A DNA stretch of 35,546 bases. Source: a virus. This document shows positions 1,546-35,546 of the stretch, piece by piece. The notes under the pieces were generated by a model, which was not told the origin of the DNA, made no database searches, and saw only the letters and a program-made list of their open reading frames with translations. The translations under genes and the position numbers were made by a program. The DNA is taken from the IMG/VR virus record IMGVR_UViG_3300025000_000272, positions 1 to 35,546 of that record, one strand, 5' to 3'. The number at the start of each line of letters is the position of its first letter. Position 1 is the first letter of the stretch.

Positions 1546-3522
1546 TTGGAATACTGCAATAACATATTATGCATTGAAGCTGGCTGGCTTATATCAGAAG
1601 GAATTGTAACAAAGTCTAATTATGATAATTTGTTAAGTCGTGGGTGGATAAAAAGAGAACGAAGGCCATCTAAGCATAAACCCGCACTAATATCATACGA
1701 CAGCATCCCTCAACAATTTAAAAACAAAATCATTGAAAAAATTGGTGATCCATACAAAGTTAGTCAGGAAAGCAACCTGAAAGAACATATTAAGCCGGAC
1801 ATGGAGGCTATGGAATATTTCACCACATATCAACTTGATGATGGCCGGTTCCTGCCAGAAGAAAGCACAAAAGAATATCACAATAACGTAATTATACTAA
1901 ATGCGGTTCATGCGATTATAACCAAGCGTATAGCCAAGAGACGTAATTTAGGTGGAAACACCACCGAGATGTGGGAGCACTTAATCAAGTCCATCGCCGA
2001 AATAAAAGGGCATGGAGTTGAGCAAATAAACCATACGCTTCCAACAAACATCAGGCGATTTAAAGACAGGTATAACTTATACCTGAAGGAAGGATACGCT
2101 TCAATAATTCATAAAGGCTTCCATAACAATAACAGCCGAAAAGTTAACGATGACATAGTGCAAGTGCTTATGTCGATTAGTGCAATGCCCAACAGGCACT
2201 TTAATACAACTGTTGCTGAATATTACAACCAATTTGTTAACGGACAAATTGATTTATTCAACGAAAACACAGGTGAGCTGTATGATGCCAATAAATTTAA
2301 GGACAAAAACGGCAATCCAATTGAAATTAGCGAAGCAACAGTATGGAATGTGCTCAACAATCTAAAAAACAAACAGGAGCTTCAAAAAGTACGTAAATCG
2401 GCCATTGATTTTAAAACCAGGTCAATGCCACACAACCACAGACACCGTCCACAGTACTCACTAAGCAAAATAAGCATGGATGACCGCGATCTTCCGCGTA
2501 AAGCTAAGGATGGTACCTGGATAAGTGCATACTATGCATACGATGTAATGAGCGAATGCTTCATTGGCTGGACACACGGCAAGGAGAAAAACACCGAAAT
2601 GGTTTACGATTGTTTCCGTAACATGTATCTAAACTTGTCATCAAATGATTTGCCCTGGCCAGCCGAGGTTGAAGTTGAAAACCACCTGATGAAACAAATA
2701 AGTGATAAGCTACATGCTATGTTTGGGTTTGTAAGGTTTTGCAACCCGCAAAACTCGAGAGAAAAAAGAGCAGAGCATGCCATTAAATCGAAAAAATATA
2801 CCGACGAAAAGAAATACCAGCCAAACATTGGCCGCTGGCATAGCAAACATGATGCCTACCAAACAAACCAGGACTATACCCAAAACCTAACCACTGCGCA
2901 ACTTATTGCCGATGACATTGAGAGTATAAGACGATACAACAATGCCCCGCACAGCATACATAAAGATAAATCACGCTGGCAGGTATTGCTCGAAAACCTC
3001 AATCCTGAACTCATTAAACCACAAGAGAGAATATTATTCCGACACATTGGTAACCGCACACAAACAAGTGTAAGAAACAACGACTTCGTGCGAGTTCAGT
3101 ATGCCGATTATGCAATAGACACTATGAACATAATGGCAAGAATGAAACCCAATAATTATACAGTTGATGCATACTGGTTGCCAGACACTAATGAAACTAT
3201 AAGAAAAGTTTACCTGTACCAGGATGATAACTTCTTGTGCTCAGCAACCAAATACGAAACATATAACGAAGCACAGGCAGAGCGAACGGAAAAGGATGAA
3301 ATGATACGTATTGAGCAAGCTAAACGACAAACATCTGCACGTAAATCAGTTAAAGATGGCCTGGCAAAGAAAGTGGTACCTATTGGGATATTGCCGAAAA
3401 CAGACTATTCATCTGTTGAAGCTAATGCAATTGAAACTATACCAAATAATAACGCCAGAACCGGATTTGAAGTTGATGGAGACGATGATTACTACACACA
3501 ACGCGCTTTAAATGACTTTTAA
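1546..3522 (+). CDS. Mu-type DDE transposase
   Basis: DDE recombinase (MuA equivalent) that inserts and replicates the phage by transposition. The product is 658 aa, normal for the Bacteroidota branch. Order: putative end-binding domain (about 6-72), helical linker, integrase-like core (about 305-430), Mu-transposase C-terminal beta-barrel (about 500-580) and a charged tail. In the core, D312, D313 and D315 supply the first catalytic Asp. The position usually DN reads VEN (E378-N379), and the last acid lies in SREKRAEH (E406 or E410). The Glu at the second catalytic position is notable; I believe relatives share it, but I cannot check. The start is TTG immediately after the preceding stop. 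The first ATG is at about residue 84, beyond the end-binding domain, so TTG initiation or readthrough is required for a full protein. Confidence 0.9.
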   Translation: MEYCNNILCIEAGWLISEGIVTKSNYDNLLSRGWIKRERRPSKHKPALISYDSIPQQFKNKIIEKIGDPYKVSQESNLKEHIKPDMEAMEYFTTYQLDDGRFLPEESTKEYHNNVIILNAVHAIITKRIAKRRNLGGNTTEMWEHLIKSIAEIKGHGVEQINHTLPTNIRRFKDRYNLYLKEGYASIIHKGFHNNNSRKVNDDIVQVLMSISAMPNRHFNTTVAEYYNQFVNGQIDLFNENTGELYDANKFKDKNGNPIEISEATVWNVLNNLKNKQELQKVRKSAIDFKTRSMPHNHRHRPQYSLSKISMDDRDLPRKAKDGTWISAYYAYDVMSECFIGWTHGKEKNTEMVYDCFRNMYLNLSSNDLPWPAEVEVENHLMKQISDKLHAMFGFVRFCNPQNSREKRAEHAIKSKKYTDEKKYQPNIGRWHSKHDAYQTNQDYTQNLTTAQLIADDIESIRRYNNAPHSIHKDKSRWQVLLENLNPELIKPQERILFRHIGNRTQTSVRNNDFVRVQYADYAIDTMNIMARMKPNNYTVDAYWLPDTNETIRKVYLYQDDNFLCSATKYETYNEAQAERTEKDEMIRIEQAKRQTSARKSVKDGLAKKVVPIGILPKTDYSSVEANAIETIPNNNARTGFEVDGDDDYYTQRALNDF

Positions 3523-3561: not shown

Positions 3562-4434
3562 ATGATTACACAAGAAGGTAAAACTAAAATTGTTCTGGCC
3601 ATAAAGGCCAATGAACCAAATTATGCAAGTGCATCAAAGTTCGCGGTTGCACTTGACATAAACCCGGCGCAATTAAGCCGGATTAAGAAAGGCGATACCG
3701 ACAATGTATTATCTGATGCCAAGTGGATTAGCATAGCCCGCAAGCTGGCAGTTGAATTAGGCAGCAAGGCTGAATTAAAAACAGCCAATACCCCGGTATT
3801 TCAATTTATAACTACACAGTTGGCAGCTTGCCAGGAAAATGCAATGAGCGGTTTGCTTTGCGATATTGCGGATATAGGAAAGACTTATGCCGCAAGGTAT
3901 TACGCACGCACGCACAAAAATGCGGTTTATATTGATTGCAGCCAATGCAAAACCAAGCAGAAACTTGTAAGAACAATGTCAAAGGAACTGGGCCTTAATA
4001 ATTCAGGCAAATATGTTGATGTGTACGAAGATTTGGTTTATTATATAAAAACAATTCCAAACCCGGTAATTATACTTGACGAAGCCGGTGATCTTGACTA
4101 TTCCGCTTTTCTCGAATTAAAAGCAATGTGGAATGCTACTGAACATTCATGTGGCTGGTACATGATGGGTGCCGATGGCCTAAAAGCTAAAATTGATGGC
4201 AATATTGGACGTAAAAAAGTAGGTTATACCGAAATATTCAGCCGGTACGGAAACCGTTATCAGAAGATAACTCCTGCAGGCGATGGTGAAGACAAAGAGT
4301 TTGCCAAACACCAAACCGCCATGATAGGCAAGGTGAATGGTGTAACCGATATCCAGGCATTGTATGCGAAAACGCAGGGTTCGTTACGTAGAATTTACAT
4401 TGAACTTCAAAAACAAAAACAACTTGCGCTATGA
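3562..4434 (+). CDS. MuB-like transposition target ATPase
   Basis: A 290-aa AAA+ ATPase that would deliver target DNA to the transposase and give target immunity. An N-terminal helix-turn-helix (about 15-50, with INPAQLSRIKKGD) precedes the ATPase domain, as in MuB. Walker A is degenerate: DIADIGKT ending at T108 keeps the GKT (106-108), but the glycines at the first and fourth positions of GxxGxGKT are Asp. Walker B is intact (VIILDEAGD, D173-E174). It lies directly after the transposase gene, the order seen in Mu. The stop overlaps the next start (ATGA). Confidence 0.88.
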   Translation: MITQEGKTKIVLAIKANEPNYASASKFAVALDINPAQLSRIKKGDTDNVLSDAKWISIARKLAVELGSKAELKTANTPVFQFITTQLAACQENAMSGLLCDIADIGKTYAARYYARTHKNAVYIDCSQCKTKQKLVRTMSKELGLNNSGKYVDVYEDLVYYIKTIPNPVIILDEAGDLDYSAFLELKAMWNATEHSCGWYMMGADGLKAKIDGNIGRKKVGYTEIFSRYGNRYQKITPAGDGEDKEFAKHQTAMIGKVNGVTDIQALYAKTQGSLRRIYIELQKQKQLAL

Positions 4435-5755: not shown

Positions 5756-5970
5756 TGGAAAAGAAGTATCAATTTGACAGCACAGAAATTTGTAAAAACT
5801 GTAAAGGCGAAGGAGAAATTATTACTCCGGGCATACATATAGGGCATGGCAAATTTTCTGAGCCGGAAGTAAACTTGTGCAACGTGTGTAATGGAAGCGG
5901 CATGGTTTCTATACATAAAGAAATTAATGTTTTTATCAAACCAAAACAGCCCAAGCCTTATGACAGATAA
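5755..5970 (+). CDS. Small zinc-finger protein, DnaJ CXXCXGXG type
   Basis: A 71-aa protein with two CxxCxGxG motifs, CKNCKGEG at C13/C16 and CNVCNGSG at C42/C45. Four cysteines in this arrangement form one zinc site in the DnaJ cysteine-rich domain. There is no J domain, so it is not a DnaJ chaperone. Stand-alone proteins of this kind are frequent in phages, and their roles are mostly unknown. It is coupled by a 1-bp overlap to the gene before and by 11 bp to the gene after. Confidence 0.7.
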   Translation: MEKKYQFDSTEICKNCKGEGEIITPGIHIGHGKFSEPEVNLCNVCNGSGMVSIHKEINVFIKPKQPKPYDR

Positions 5971-6334
5971 CAAAACATTTAAAGAAACAAAACGGCTGAT
6001 TGACCGAAAATATAAGCTTGAAAGCTGGCTGTTAAGCCACGGCTTAGATCACCCGGACAGGTACCAGAACCTTATTGATTTAAAAGATGTGAAAAACAAA
6101 ATTGAGCAATTGAATGCAAAGGAAACAACGGATGCTAAACAAGTTACACATTGGCTAAATCGCAGAAACAACCTTGAGCTTTGGCTTAACAAAAACAGTT
6201 CTGATCATCCGGACTGGGATCAGAACCTTCGTGATTTGAATATTGCCAAATACAAGGTTGAACAAATGCAGGAACGCGAACACCGCACCCCGGTGAATGT
6301 TACTGAAACATACACTTTACCACGTAAATATTAA
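5960..6334 (+). CDS. Hypothetical protein with a 40-residue internal duplication
   Basis: A 124-aa, charged and probably all-helical protein. It contains two copies of a roughly 40-residue unit (about 16-55 and 68-107). Each has a LE.WL helix, a DHPD turn, a QNL.DL helix and a K..EQ helix. I chose ATG 5960, which overlaps the previous gene by 11 bp; an in-frame start at 5891 would overlap by 80 bp and add a segment unlike the repeats. The family is not recognised. Confidence 0.65.
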   Translation: MTDNKTFKETKRLIDRKYKLESWLLSHGLDHPDRYQNLIDLKDVKNKIEQLNAKETTDAKQVTHWLNRRNNLELWLNKNSSDHPDWDQNLRDLNIAKYKVEQMQEREHRTPVNVTETYTLPRKY

Positions 6335-6353
6335 TTTTTAAACAAACAGAAAA

Positions 6354-7049
6354 ATGGAAACAACTGCAAAAAAAGCAAATGAGCTTACAAGCCAGGAGTT
6401 AAAGGCCCTACTGGCAGAAAGAGAAAAAGCTGAAAAGCTTGAGAAGAAAAAAGCACGAGAAGATTACGAAAGCACTCGTGATGATCTCATTGAAATGGTG
6501 ATGATAAAAGCAAAACGCATGGAAGCCGAGTTAAAAGACTTCAAGTCATTTGTGCTGAATAAACTGGAAGGATTTCGTGATATGGCCAATAATTATGGCG
6601 ATATAAGAAGCAATAGCAAGGGTGGCTTTTCGTTGCGCCACAGTTTGTCGCAGGAAATGGTGAGGCTTGACCGAAACATTAACACGGAATATGACGAACG
6701 TGCATCGCAAGCGGAAGCCTTGCTAAAAGACTTTCTTGAAGATCAGGTGAAAAAGCGCGACCTGGCAACATTCAGAACTATTACCGCACTATTATCGCGT
6801 AATAAAGCCGGTGATTTTACCCCCGGCCAAATTGGTGCACTCTTAAAAATTCGTGACAATTACGAAGACAGCCGGTGGCAGAAAGCAATGCAACTGTTTG
6901 AGGAAAGTTACCGGGTTAGGGATATAAGTTATTCCGTATCGTTTTTTAGAAAAGATACACTGGGCAAAGATGTGGCTATTATATTATCAATGGCATCGCT
7001 CCCGGTTGAACTGGAAGACATTGAAACTAAAGTGAAAGAAGATAAATAG
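6354..7049 (+). CDS. DUF3164-like transposable-phage protein
   Basis: A 231-aa, highly charged protein. An N-terminal coiled coil (about 10-50) is followed by a helical domain. Such DUF3164 proteins are regularly found in the early region of Mu-like phages, between the transposition genes and gp16 or late regulators; their biochemical role is unknown. Recognition rests on length, the helical charged layout, the GFSLRHSL motif near residue 92 and position. It is followed by a hairpin at 7057-7083. Confidence 0.7.
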   Translation: METTAKKANELTSQELKALLAEREKAEKLEKKKAREDYESTRDDLIEMVMIKAKRMEAELKDFKSFVLNKLEGFRDMANNYGDIRSNSKGGFSLRHSLSQEMVRLDRNINTEYDERASQAEALLKDFLEDQVKKRDLATFRTITALLSRNKAGDFTPGQIGALLKIRDNYEDSRWQKAMQLFEESYRVRDISYSVSFFRKDTLGKDVAIILSMASLPVELEDIETKVKEDK

Positions 7050-8215: not shown

Positions 8216-8803
8216 ATGGCTTTAACCGAAAAGCAACAAAAGTGGATTATTAACCATTTTAAGAACACTAAAAACGATGTAATTATGCATAAGTTGAACA
8301 TAAAGCACTCAACATTGCACCGTTTTGCACGCGAAGCCGGACTTAAGAAAACAAAAAAGTTTCAGCAGCAATGTCAGTTAAATGCCTCTAAAGAAGCCGT
8401 TTTGGCAAATAAAAGAAACAACTGGCCGCCCAAAGGTTATATTATACCCCGCAGCGCAGAATTCCGGCTTAAAAGCGGAATTACACCTGCAAAAAGACTT
8501 GGCAAAAAAAGAAACCAGGAGCGCATCAGAAAATCTGCCGAAAAACGCCGCCTTACGGTTACTGCAGAAAAACGCCGGGTGTTGTTTGGCTTAGAGCAAA
8601 AAACAAAACTAAAGGTAGTTGCAGCGGCACCATCAAAAAATGCATATAGGTATACGTTAAAAAAAAGAGGCTATATAGTAGGCCGGGCCGCACGTATTAT
8701 TTTGTTTGACCAAAACACTAACCGCAGCAATACCGTTGAACGCACGGCAACTGAAAAGTACAAATTTACGATTAAGCAATTAGAAGAAACTTCACTAATT
8801 TAA
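8216..8803 (+). CDS. Basic HTH DNA-binding protein
   Basis: A 195-aa protein with a very high lysine/arginine content. The N-terminus (about 3-45: EKQQKWIINHF, NDVIMHKLNIKHSTLHRFAREAGL) forms a helix-turn-helix of the kind that recognises DNA. Residues 60-130 resemble the basic region of phage and homing-endonuclease-associated proteins, but I see no HNH or GIY-YIG catalytic motif. It stands near the end of the early operon, where Mu has its middle/late activator Mor, so a late-gene activator is one possibility. ATG 8216 is preferred; ATG 8204 in the same frame is the alternative. Confidence 0.6.
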   Translation: MALTEKQQKWIINHFKNTKNDVIMHKLNIKHSTLHRFAREAGLKKTKKFQQQCQLNASKEAVLANKRNNWPPKGYIIPRSAEFRLKSGITPAKRLGKKRNQERIRKSAEKRRLTVTAEKRRVLFGLEQKTKLKVVAAAPSKNAYRYTLKKRGYIVGRAARIILFDQNTNRSNTVERTATEKYKFTIKQLEETSLI

Positions 8804-9448: not shown

Positions 9449-9622
9449 ATGATAGCAAAAACAAGGGATGAAGCACACGAAAAAATGAAGTTAGGCGAAG
9501 CTTTTGAAGCTCCAAGCAATTTATCGAAATTCAATAAAAGTATGCTTGATTTTTGGGCTGTAAAGTATAATTACAAAAAAGAAAAATCGAGACGTGGTTA
9601 TCATATTTACAGTCCCTCTTAA
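9449..9622 (+). CDS. 57-aa cassette-like hypothetical protein
   Basis: A short gene with start ATG 9449 and stop TAA 9620-9622, just before the first attC-like palindrome. The protein is basic at the C-terminus (YKKEKSRRGYHIY) and has no recognised family. It lies 24 bp after the early operon. It is the first of four tiny genes in an island with cassette architecture. The complementary 5' boundary expected for its own cassette (GTTACCATT) is not found upstream, so that end may have been lost. Confidence 0.55.
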   Translation: MIAKTRDEAHEKMKLGEAFEAPSNLSKFNKSMLDFWAVKYNYKKEKSRRGYHIYSPS

Positions 9623-9624
9623 AT

Positions 9625-9759
9625 AAATGGTAACGATGGCGGTATGAAATCGGTTGGGCTGCGATGTTCGTACCTGTCAAAATAAACGGACTTTGAAACT
9701 GGCTGAAACGCTCGATTAACCACGGATGCCAAACTGTTTTATACCGTGTGTTACCGCCC
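9625..9759 (+). repeat. attC-like palindromic element 1
   Basis: A long imperfect palindrome. The left arm (9629-9659) contains GGTAACGATGGCGGTATGAA, and the right arm (9728-9755) contains TTTATACCGTGTGTTACC. Read against each other, GGTAAC pairs with GTTACC and CGGTAT pairs with ATACCG, with unpaired bases between, and a loop of about 70 nt. The layout (outer AAC/GTT boxes, inner boxes, asymmetric bulges) is that of an integron attC site. The flanking bases differ from the class 1 consensus. Its right end GTTACCGCCC (9750-9759) is the exact reverse complement of 10415-10424. Confidence 0.7.
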
Positions 9760-9796
9760 GTTTTTCTTTGCGTTCTTATTTAGAATTAAAATAAAT

Positions 9797-9853
9797 TACG
9801 CAATTGAGTAAAATAAATTAAAAAAAGCTTGTTTTGTATTACGCAATTGCGTA
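9797..9853 (+). promoter_or_regulatory. Promoter with two palindromic operators
   Basis: TACGCAATTGCGTA at 9840-9853 is a perfect 14-bp palindrome; TACGCAATTGAGTA at 9797-9810 is the same with one change. The first overlaps a possible promoter: CTTG at 9828-9831, about 20 bp spacer, then TATTTTTA starting at 9852. This suggests an autoregulated promoter for the two genes that follow, of the kind common in toxin-antitoxin-type operons. Confidence 0.6.
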
Positions 9854-9897
9854 TTTTTACTTCATCAAATTAATACTAACAATTAAAATTTAAAACG

Positions 9898-10125
9898 ATG
9901 AAAGCAAATTACAAAAAACACACAGCAAACAGCGAAAACTTTAACTGTTTACAAGCTTTAAGAGGTATTATTAAAGATTCTTTTTACGTAGCTAATGTAA
10001 AATGGGGCGGTTTTTGGAATGGCATGAATTGGGAAAACTTTTCATTTTACTGTACACCTGAAACTTTAGCAAAGATTGAATCTTTCTGTAATGAAAATGA
10101 ACTTTCAATAGAATTTTCAAAATGA
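9898..10125 (+). CDS. Cassette protein, first of a coupled pair
   Basis: A 75-aa protein, aromatic-rich in the middle (WGGFWNGMNWENFSFY), followed by a helix (PETLAKIESFCNENEL). The family is not recognised. It has its own promoter with two palindromic operators upstream. Its stop overlaps the start of the next gene (ATGA), so the two are translated together. A small coupled pair with an operator-bearing promoter inside a mobile cassette suggests toxin-antitoxin or defence, but neither protein shows a known motif of such systems. Confidence 0.65.
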   Translation: MKANYKKHTANSENFNCLQALRGIIKDSFYVANVKWGGFWNGMNWENFSFYCTPETLAKIESFCNENELSIEFSK

Positions 10126-10412
10126 GATACGAAAGAGAATTTTTACAGCAAAAAGGAATCCCACACCTACCAGGTGATTGGGATTTCCGTTCTGAAGCTC
10201 AACAAGTAAATTGGATTTCAGAGAACTACCCAAATGTTTTTATAGAAATATTTGAGCCTGAAAACATTATAAATTGGTCTGAACTAAGTAGATTTTTGAA
10301 TAAAGGCGACCGTAATGGTATTAGAAAAAACAAATGCCCTGAAATTCATAAAAAGAATGTTCAAAATCTGGTCAAAGCTATTAGAAAATGGCAGGACTCT
10401 TTGCGCTCTTAA
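10122..10412 (+). CDS. Cassette protein, second of a coupled pair
   Basis: A 96-aa protein with a basic C-terminal half (KNKCPEIHKKNVQNLVKAIRKW) and an acidic middle (FIEIFEPENIINW). No family is recognised. It overlaps the preceding gene by 4 bp. The stop is 2 bp before attC-like element 2, the tight spacing usual for integron cassettes. Confidence 0.65.
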   Translation: MRYEREFLQQKGIPHLPGDWDFRSEAQQVNWISENYPNVFIEIFEPENIINWSELSRFLNKGDRNGIRKNKCPEIHKKNVQNLVKAIRKWQDSLRS

Positions 10413-10414
10413 AT

Positions 10415-10513
10415 GGGCGGTAACGGCTGGCGGTATGAGCTGACCGCCTTATTAGACAGCTTAAAATTAATAATACGCTCATTGGCGGTTTGCTTATACC
10501 GCTTGTTATGGGC
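10415..10513 (+). repeat. attC-like palindromic element 2
   Basis: The left arm (10415-10448) contains GGTAACGGCTGGCGGTATGA, and the right arm (10484-10513) contains GCTTATACCGCTTGTTATGG. They pair imperfectly along about 30 bp with bulges. The left arm shares GGTAACG..TGGCGGTATGA with element 1, so the two are one family. The left boundary GGGCGGTAAC matches the start of the cassette it follows; the right boundary GTTATGGGC (10505-10513) matches instead the far end of the next cassette. Confidence 0.7.
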
Positions 10514-10530
10514 AGTTAATATTTAAAACA

Positions 10531-10713
10531 ATGGATGATAAATTTGAAAAATTAGGACAATTGATTGATTCAATCGACAGTTTGGCACATGGATTAAATA
10601 TGCCAATGTCAGCAGAATTTCATATTCAACAATTAAAAACAATTTTGCCAGAAAAAGTAAAAGAACTTAAAGAATCGTTTATTGAAATAGCTGGTGAAAA
10701 TCCGTGGGACTAA
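10531..10713 (+). CDS. 60-aa cassette hypothetical protein
   Basis: A small acidic, helical protein ending in PWD. The family is not recognised. It is flanked exactly by GTTATGGGC (10505-10513) and GCCCATAAC (10716-10724), which are perfect reverse complements. That makes it a single-gene cassette with 17 bp before the ATG and 2 bp after the stop. Confidence 0.65.
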   Translation: MDDKFEKLGQLIDSIDSLAHGLNMPMSAEFHIQQLKTILPEKVKELKESFIEIAGENPWD

Positions 10714-10715
10714 TT

Positions 10716-10757
10716 GCCCATAACTACCGTATAGTCTCAACTCAGTTGAGACTATAC
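10716..10757 (+). repeat. Left boundary of a third attC-like element and a near-perfect hairpin
   Basis: GCCCATAAC at 10716-10724 is the expected 5' arm of the attC-like site belonging to the 60-aa cassette. It runs into a 29-bp palindrome at 10729-10757 (14-bp arms GTATAGTCTCAACT, one central base). No matching GTT-type right boundary follows, so this third element is either truncated or of a short hairpin form. There is no T-run, so it is not a typical terminator. The remaining 10758-10894 shows no gene. Confidence 0.6.
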
Positions 10758-11179: not shown

Positions 11180-11196
11180 TTATTACATTTGCTCCT

Positions 11197-11339
11197 GAAT
11201 TCCAATTTGAACAAGGGGCAAATCCTTTGAACAAAGTTTATTTAAAATAAAGCAAAGCTGCTACGGTGGCCAGAACGAAAGAACTGGCTGGTTCAACGCC
11301 CAGCGTTCGAATTGGAATTCACACCTAAGGCGGCTTTGC
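11197..11339 (+). ncRNA. Structured intergenic segment, possible pseudoknot
   Basis: Interleaved inverted repeats. GAATTCCAATT...GAAC (11197-11212) pairs with GTTCGAATTGGAATTC (11305-11320), and GCAAAGCTGC (11252-11261) pairs, with one mismatch, with GCGGCTTTGC (11330-11339). A short hairpin GCCAG...CTGGC lies between (about 11269-11288). The order A-B-A'-B' allows a pseudoknot. It could be an attC-like relic, a small RNA or a leader for the antirepressor gene 28 bp further on. No promoter or terminator fixes its ends. Confidence 0.45.
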
Positions 11340-11366
11340 CCATTTAATAACTTAAATTCTTTTACA

Positions 11367-12053
11367 ATGAATTCCAAAAAGAATGAAAAGCAAACCATGA
11401 GTTTGCAGTTGTCAAAAAGCTCCACCCCGGAGCAGGTAAAGAACTACTTTCAGCAAGTGTTCGAGTTAAAACAATCTGGCAAAGAGTTTCCGGTTAACCT
11501 GGATGAAGTTTGGCCCCTGGTTTACAGAAGAAAAGAAGAGGCTGTGCGGGTTTTAAAATCTGATTTTATTAAAAATGAGGATTTTAACATGCAAGTTGTT
11601 GAAAATCAATTTTTACGCAGAAATGCGGAAAAATATAAACCAGGTAGGCCAACAGAAAATTACTATCTTTCAGTTGGGTGTTTGGAATATTTCATTGCTA
11701 AAAAAGTAAAACCGGTTTTTGAGGTTTACCGTAGGGTATTTCATGCAGCCGTAGAAAACAGGTATATGCCTATTATGGGCCTACAGCCGGTGTACATTGA
11801 TGGCAAACCTGTTTATAATTACATTGAAGTATTAAAAAAACTCGATTATAGTACCACCAGCGGATCCGTTTCTGCACGCAGGAGAAATAATCCACAGGAA
11901 TTCAGTAATAATTATGGCTACTGGCAGATAACTGAGTTTTATGCATTATACCTTGCAGGAATGGTAAGCCAACGTAAAACGCAAAAGCATTTAAAAGTAG
12001 AGCGCGAAAAGTACCTGTTGCGAAAGAATAATCAATTATCATTAATCTTATAA
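11367..12053 (+). CDS. Antirepressor-like protein (AntA/KilA-N type)
   Basis: A 228-aa protein. The N-terminal part (about 25-125) looks like a phage antirepressor DNA-binding domain: FPVNLDEVWPLVYRRKEEAVRVL, then a PGRPTENYYLSVGCLEYFIA segment in which a phage KilA/AntA-type domain is expected. The C-terminal part (about 145-215) has YNYIEVLKKL and is basic, resembling Bacteroidota phage antirepressor C-termini. Such proteins relieve repression to trigger lytic growth or switch regulons. It is placed at the end of the plus-strand early/accessory block, ahead of a BRO-like gene. Confidence 0.65.
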   Translation: MNSKKNEKQTMSLQLSKSSTPEQVKNYFQQVFELKQSGKEFPVNLDEVWPLVYRRKEEAVRVLKSDFIKNEDFNMQVVENQFLRRNAEKYKPGRPTENYYLSVGCLEYFIAKKVKPVFEVYRRVFHAAVENRYMPIMGLQPVYIDGKPVYNYIEVLKKLDYSTTSGSVSARRRNNPQEFSNNYGYWQITEFYALYLAGMVSQRKTQKHLKVEREKYLLRKNNQLSLIL

Positions 12054-35398: not shown

Positions 35399-35515
35399 AT
35401 GAAAGTACTTGAAATAAGCAGTAAATATATATATGGCGCGACAAAGATAATGATAAGATGCAATAAAAAAACATTAGTTTTGAGTGTTATTTTTTATGTA
35501 CAATTTGATTTATAA
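35399..35515 (+). CDS. Very short ORF at the right end
   Basis: A 38-aa frame from ATG 35399 to TAA 35513-35515, 3 bp after the previous stop. It ends in a hydrophobic stretch (TLVLSVIFYVQF) and runs through the inner right-end transposase site, so its 3' codons are set by that site. Weak support; it may be fortuitous. Confidence 0.3.
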   Translation: MKVLEISSKYIYGATKIMIRCNKKTLVLSVIFYVQFDL

Positions 35516-35528
35516 ATAAGTACATTTT
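35494..35528 (-). repeat. Right-end transposase sites R2 and R1
   Basis: On the minus strand, R1 reads AAAATGTACTTA (35528-35517) and R2 reads AAATTGTACATAA (35506-35494); GTAC cores are 22 bp apart. R1 matches L1/L2 (AAAATGTAC) and R2 matches L3 (AATTGTACATAA). The bases outside R1 (35529-35546) may include the terminus and some host DNA. Confidence 0.75.
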
Positions 35529-35546
35529 GATTTGACGATTATAAAT

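Follow-up and report, generated by a model that had tools for sequence, protein, structure and literature searches.

A probable integrase-less cassette array of integron type in a Mu-like phage of Bacteroidota

Introduction

Bacteroidota have been regarded as almost devoid of integrons. From this phylum, IntegronFinder 2.0 reported only integrase-only elements and one complete integron, in Salinibacter (PMC9024848), surveys of intI demanded the additional domain (PMC2426708), and the insertion is not fully conserved in an integron-like subgroup of tyrosine recombinases (PMC8138268). Chromosomal integrons of Treponema encode a canonical IntI, with intI, attI, and the cassettes sharing one orientation (PMC3607928), and in ordinary attC sites the bottom strand is recombinogenic (PMC8946536). 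Clusters of attC sites lacking integrases (CALINs) have been found in phage genomes in a survey that used canonical attC/IntI detection, and some were shown to recombine with IntI1 (Qi et al. 2023, PMC9892861); with phage CALINs already known, the presence of an integron in a bacteriophage is not in itself a novelty. Here we analyzed a 35,546-nt viral stretch (the window; IMG/VR record IMGVR_UViG_3300025000_000272), for which a preliminary description made from the sequence alone had proposed integron-like gene cassettes inside a transposable phage. Covariance model (CM) matches, arrays of the same family elsewhere, recurring cassette parts, and MuA and MuB genes bear this proposal out. Positions 9629 to 10733 probably form an integrase-less cassette array of integron type, laid out as a CALIN and carried by a Mu-like Bacteroidota phage.

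Two attC-Like Sites and Two Cassettes

CM R1, trained on 56 sites of other contigs and none from the window, returned two + strand matches in the window, W2 (50.7 bits) and W1 (46.5 bits), with everything else at 14.4 bits or less. The two lie less than 1 kb apart, with no integrase gene in the window, as in a CALIN, which is defined by at least two attC sites within 4 kb and no integrase. Both share the R''-spacer-L'' ... L'-spacer-R' layout of canonical integron hairpins, in the order xxxAAC, a 4-5 nt spacer, GCGGTATGA..., a variable loop, ...TTATACCG, a 2-3 nt spacer, and GTTxxx. In W1, the boxes are GGTAAC (R''), GCGGTATGAAA (L''), TTTATACCG (L'), and GTTACC (R'), and the + strand fold uses G.T wobbles. 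The CM matches and the family consensus structure thus give the window AAC/GTT R boxes, as the preliminary description had noted of the cores, together with L boxes, unpaired spacers, and a variable loop. The W2 DNA fold was better than shuffled sequence on both strands, with z of -3.5 on the + strand and -2.35 on the - strand.

Cassette ends are complementary and cassette specific, again as in canonical integrons. Cassette 1 is bounded by GTTACCGCCC (9750-9759) and GGGCGGTAAC (10415-10424), and cassette 2 by GTTATGGGC (10505-10513) and GCCCATAAC (10716-10724), a pairing that extends to 10 nt as GTTATGGGCA (10505-10514) and TGCCCATAAC (10715-10724). The four strings first quoted, without this extension, had been placed correctly, and the accompanying claim that ends match within a cassette and differ between cassettes holds both in the window and across many arrays (see below). 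The weight given to this pairing as the decisive detail was not justified, however; the + strand of the window contains 13 GTT/AAC-anchored inverted nine-mers against 7.9 expected, and four ten-mers against 2.1, and taken purely as short inverted repeats, the boundary pairs do not stand out. They become meaningful because they fall exactly on the R boxes of W1 and W2, which were scored independently.

Chance palindromes would account for boundary repeats that alone are near the chance rate. They would not be expected to yield two adjacent same-strand CM matches of 46-51 bits, nor boundary pairing across a whole family. R1 gave no match in control loci L010-L016, L100, and L101 (L numbers, e.g., L017 or L196, label the loci compared) or in three non-Bacteroidota genomes. 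Single matches of 48-52 bits did occur in five of 379 genomes of two other phyla (1/190 and 4/189), so the R1 E-values of 3.9e-8 and 2.7e-7 are somewhat optimistic. We put false matches at about 1e-4 per 35 kb when a single site is considered and at a negligible level for two sites less than 1 kb apart, which leaves chance a vanishingly small probability.

Read from left to right, with a slash at the putative crossover, the window runs AAATGGTAA/C, W1, leader, 75-aa and 96-aa open reading frames (ORFs), GGGCGGTAA/C, W2, 60-aa ORF, GCCCATAA/C, and TACCGTATAG, i.e., two complete cassettes followed by an attI-like end (Table 1). The preliminary description had counted four tiny genes separated by palindromes. 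Three of the four lie in intact cassettes; the 57-aa ORF left of W1 lacks a matching 5' boundary, and the array has no third full palindrome, its third boundary, GCCCATAAC, standing alone. Given that AAATGGTAAC has no partner on the 5' side of the 57-aa ORF, this gene is either an old truncated cassette or a native gene. The attI-like end, AACTACCGTATA, ranked 2 among 1424 AAC sites by a position weight matrix (PWM) of phage attI sites and 17 by a chromosomal PWM, and is one base off the AACTACCTTATA of L154 and L156.

A Family of attC-Like Arrays with Its Own Recombinase

A pattern scan of IMG/VR returned eight contigs with the same palindrome. Among the phages compared, huge-phage record LR756500 (L001) has three attC-like sites; in this 462-kb uncultured phage, a cassette at 5938-6985 encodes, between GTTAGCGGTA and TACCGCTAAC, a radical-SAM RlmN-like protein. 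A first scan of genomes by DNA pattern gave only coincidental matches in coding DNA and was rejected. A 269-aa tyrosine recombinase adjoins the array of L002, and a protein scan with this recombinase identified relatives in 180 viral-contig stretches, of which 80 loci were kept. Most recombinase loci with upstream sequence bear same-strand palindrome arrays, where shuffled sequence gave 0.1 per 10 kb. The outer six boundary bases matched 6/6 in 114 of 220 adjacent pairs but in only 13 of 517 non-adjacent pairs (redundant loci kept in), and 15 of the 22 pairs in the consensus structure show compensatory (two-sided) changes. Terminase scored above cut-off in 15 of 40 array- or recombinase-bearing records; many of these records are therefore clearly phages, while some IMG/VR contigs may be misclassified.

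The family is not confined to viruses, and its palindromes flank differing genes both in further phages and on bacterial chromosomes. R1 matched 179 of 395 sampled Bacteroidota genomes, where arrays are long and boundaries pair, and a related recombinase was encoded in 91 of the 395 at E<=1e-60. Qi et al.'s Polaribacter phage P12002L gave no R1 match and by this model is not a family member. The window resembles phage CALINs in holding attC clusters without an integrase in a phage genome; the present family differs from them in being concentrated in Bacteroidota and the phages of that phylum, with its own phage-borne recombinase, inverted ORF polarity, and a Mu-like carrier (PMC9892861).

Phage-array recombinases are about 257-270 aa long. 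An alignment of 31 members contains the tyrosine-recombinase motifs R134, K159, HxLRH 219-223, H245, and Y254 (L017 numbering) and lacks the IntI-specific insertion; when aligned with IntI4 (2a3v), query residues 179-213 span IntI4 180-261, so that 34 residues face 81. Scores against the NCBIfam integron-integrase model were 132-199 bits (cut-off 265), scores against NCBIfam XerA were higher, and one member exceeded the XerA cut-off. The predicted fold (pLDDT, the predicted local distance difference test score, 86.6) is nearest to the archaeal Xer 4a8e (Z 22.2), followed by XerA 5hxy (19.3) and IntI4 2a3v (18.2). In size and in best match, by sequence and predicted fold, these proteins thus resemble simple XerA/XerC-like recombinases. 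Unlike the latter, which act at dif, they adjoin attI at the end of an attC array.

The Mobile Unit and Its Polarity

In 48 of the 80 recombinase loci, the array ends in a lone xxxxxxAAC with no palindrome after it, which pairs with the GTTxxxxxx of the last palindrome at 5-6 of 6 bases. In nearly all cases this terminal AAC runs into a conserved TATNATATA-type or TATNATATATA-like stretch, about 30-80 nt before the recombinase start, and the two together appear to be the attI of these arrays. Duplicated or shared units always extend from AAC to AAC and never from GTT to GTT, including 394 nt at 100% identity in L017, 794 nt at 99.7% in L115/L116, and units in L119, L131, and, in two phages, L027/L067. 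In the 207-kb viral contig L002, identical cassettes at 8399-8751 and 11401-11753 each hold a palindrome and a 76-aa membrane-protein-like ORF, and the second copy directly adjoins attI and the recombinase. Since the breaks fall at AAC, at attI junctions and in duplicated cassettes alike, the mobile unit, on the strand modelled by R1, consists of a palindrome and the gene segment that follows it, with the crossover on the AAC side; in cassette 1 we place it at AA/C. The earlier delimitation of the cassettes accordingly stands for their paired ends but not for the palindrome, which each unit takes from upstream of its gene rather than from downstream.

Scored symmetrically, family stems had 272 G.T against 23 A.C pairs on the R1-modelled strand, with spacers of 5-7 nt on the left and 2-3 nt on the right. 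The G.T excess indicates that this strand folds better. With the cassette genes of chromosomal arrays encoded on the other strand, it is the counterpart of the bottom strand, the recombinogenic one, in ordinary attC sites. Chromosomal arrays end in the related recombinase, whose stop codon is some 100 nt away from attI, and share an attI of the form AAC-T(T/C)GTTTATA in 28 of 30 loci examined (control rate 11.5%). The longest cassette ORF there points away from attI in 60 of 64 cases and toward it in four, a layout shared with the Treponema integrons (PMC3607928). In phage arrays, by contrast, it points toward attI in 113 of 124 cases and away in 10, with intI transcribed away from attI. The idea that all arrays of the family carry reversed ORFs was rejected, as this ORF census found the reversal in phage arrays only. 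In the window, cassette ORFs read toward the attI-like end, and L199 likewise has phage-type polarity.

Polarity also bears on a reading of the palindromes as RNA elements, such as transcription terminators, that separate small early genes, an objection already raised in the preliminary description. The palindromes are intergenic, the + strand folds well as RNA (W2 z -4.1), and G.U pairs are favored on the coding strand, all as RNA elements would have it. No T run follows the palindromes, however, and a search of Rfam returned no match. In chromosomal arrays, moreover, the same strand is noncoding for the cassette genes, so polarity tracks attI rather than transcription. RNA elements also predict no boundary pairing, whole-unit duplications, or association with attI and a recombinase, and we consider this explanation highly improbable.

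Recurrence of Cassette Parts and the State of the Array

Parts of the window cassettes recur elsewhere, the kind of evidence that a check proposed in the preliminary description had called for. A relative 91% identical to the 96-aa gene is present in L196, with attC-like matches after it. The 3' part of this gene occurs in L198 and L199, followed by a different palindrome and then by a leader matching that of cassette 1. Near-identical leaders precede different genes twice in L196, and a more diverged one does so in L199, which suggests that the leader is a shared regulated promoter; in the window, two copies of ATTACGCAATTG(a/c)GTA at 9793-9857 form a 25-nt inverted repeat within it. Homologous leaders have differing boundaries that nevertheless match within each cassette, GTTACCGCCC/GGGCGGTAAC in the window and GTTATGCCCC/GGGGCATAAC in L199. 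A scan of 375 Bacteroidota genomes, run without a positive control, returned no relative of the 96-aa protein. The case that was to overturn the proposal, homologous phages with the same genes and palindromes in fixed association, was not encountered, as the Mu-like relatives searched lack the sites and the palindromes occur with other genes. CM searches found no attC match in any of these relatives, and the array was therefore acquired by the lineage of the window phage.

Several observations weigh against an array that recombines as integrons do. The W1 fold is only weakly better than shuffled sequence. The first gene, the 57-aa ORF, lacks a proper 5' boundary, the score of AACTACCGTATA falls below all or nearly all PWM training sites, and a search of the window for an integrase, including the IntI type, found none, confirming the preliminary description on this point. 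If the cassettes were absent, the junction would be expected to read AAATGGTAA/CTACCGTATAG, and this empty site, GGTAACTACCGT, was absent from all loci examined, related phages included. Recombination at W1 and W2 is a deduction from sequence. The array could instead be genuine but a frozen relic, brought in on a single occasion from a phage integron, through homologous or illegitimate recombination, and since then no longer a substrate. The want of an adjoining integrase, the weakly conserved attI-like site, the degenerate left end, and the lack of arrays in other Mu-like phages fit such a history. R-box pairing, however, remains perfect over 10 nt in both cases, and the two attC scores, still about 50 bits, are in the range of long-array sites; we regard a relic as possible but doubtful.

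Proposed Mechanism and Relation to Integrons

For an active array, we propose that a XerA/IntI-like integrase, of the type that accompanies such arrays elsewhere, would act in trans on the folded + strand of attC and cut at the AAC-side R box. Circular cassettes, each an attC with its gene, would then be joined to the right-hand attI-like AAC (10722), leaving the newest cassettes on that side. Cassette genes would point toward attI, co-directional with the + strand early genes of the phage, an alignment that would permit transcription by read-through or from a cassette's own leader.

The preliminary description had assigned the integrase to the host. A host chromosomal integron integrase is conceivable given the frequency of both chromosomal-type recombinase and attC type in Bacteroidota genomes (91 and 179 of 395). 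Chromosomal cassette ORFs run the opposite way relative to attC and attI (4:60), though, and the window and L199 show phage-type polarity, making insertion by a host enzyme unlikely. As the latter would be expected to give ORFs pointing away from attI, a phage-type integrase in trans is the likelier agent. The match of ORF direction with phage arrays likewise indicates that the cassettes probably came from a phage-integron pool and not directly from the chromosomal integron of a host.

That the array works like an integron is well supported. Beyond the shared site structure, the family has a tyrosine recombinase by attI, one attC strand that folds better, and cassettes that are duplicated whole and shuffled into different contexts, as the window parts in L196, L198, and L199 illustrate. 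It is not supported that the array is a canonical integron, because integrase type and ORF direction were both tested and both differ: no integrase gene occurs in the window, the IntI-specific insertion is missing from the recombinases of related arrays, and ORFs of the window and of phage arrays point toward attI, whereas those of chromosomal arrays point away.

We think it reasonably probable that a class of integron not yet described is common to Bacteroidota and the phages of this phylum. It would occur in about a quarter to half of the genomes sampled, be missed by standard surveys, and have a short XerA/IntI-like integrase devoid of the IntI-specific domain as well as attI and attC families of its own. 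Phages, including contigs of more than 200 kb and the window phage, would form a separate branch with cassette genes inverted relative to attC and attI. No earlier description of the Bacteroidota class, the insertion-less integrase, or the reversed phage cassettes was found in a search of an open-access subset of PubMed Central. Judging from the arrays, a large system of integron type may have escaped notice in Bacteroidota because its integrase lacks the additional domain. In phages, it would serve as a cassette exchange for small accessory genes, even in transposable phages without an integrase. The reversal of ORFs between phage and chromosomal arrays is consistent and poses a testable puzzle, namely how cassette genes come to be expressed and what keeps the two pools apart.

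Carrier Phage and Additional Features

Table 1. Positions of array components and transposition genes in the window
Feature	Position	Strand	Basis or remark
MuA-type transposase	1546..3522	+	PHROG 310, E=2e-43
MuB-type transposition protein	3562..4434	+	PHROG 296, E=1e-35
57-aa ORF left of W1	9449..9622	+	AAATGGTAAC without partner on 5' side
attC-like site W1	9629..9755	+	CM R1 46.5 bits, E=2.7e-7
Cassette 1 (W1 palindrome, leader, 75-aa and 96-aa ORFs)	9634..10423	+	Unit defined from attI junctions and duplications
Cassette 1 leader, promoter/operator-like	9760..9897	+	Inverted repeat ATTACGCAATTG.../...CGCAATTGCGTA at 9793-9857
Cassette ORF, 75 aa, unknown	9898..10125	+	No match in Pfam or PHROG
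Cassette ORF, 96 aa, unknown function	10122..10412	+	PHROG 34662
attC-like site W2	10419..10510	+	CM R1 50.7 bits, E=3.9e-8
Cassette 2 (W2 palindrome, 60-aa ORF)	10424..10723	+	Boundary pairing
Cassette ORF, 60 aa, unknown	10531..10713	+	In cassette 2
attI-like acceptor AACTACCGTATA	10722..10733	+	PWM rank and likeness to L154/L156; suggestive; no integrase gene adjoining
14-bp perfect inverted repeat	10729..10757		Directly right of attI-like site; no T run after

The window phage is a Mu-like transposable phage, probably of Bacteroidota. A MuA-type transposase identifies the carrier as transposable, and MuB and virion genes are also present by PHROG matches, namely terminase (38), portal (113), sheath (907), and tape measure (991), along with a protease. 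TGTACA-bearing repeats near both window ends (1-40 and 35440-35546) fit the transposase-binding ends of a Mu-like phage. Near the left phage end, 508-519 (+) is an exact copy of the chromosomal attI consensus, AACTTGTTTATA, with GCACAAT just ahead; by our estimate, chance would yield about 0.02-0.05 matches of this type over the window. Ahead of a 228-aa gene, noncoding positions 11190-11345 have a strong predicted fold (RNA z -4.0) and no match in a search of Rfam. The segment, TATTTGCTCCTGA ... GGTGG ... GAAA ... TCACACCTAAGG ..., is kept in the Mu-like relatives L163 and L165 and partly in L016, and may represent a structured RNA conserved among these phages.
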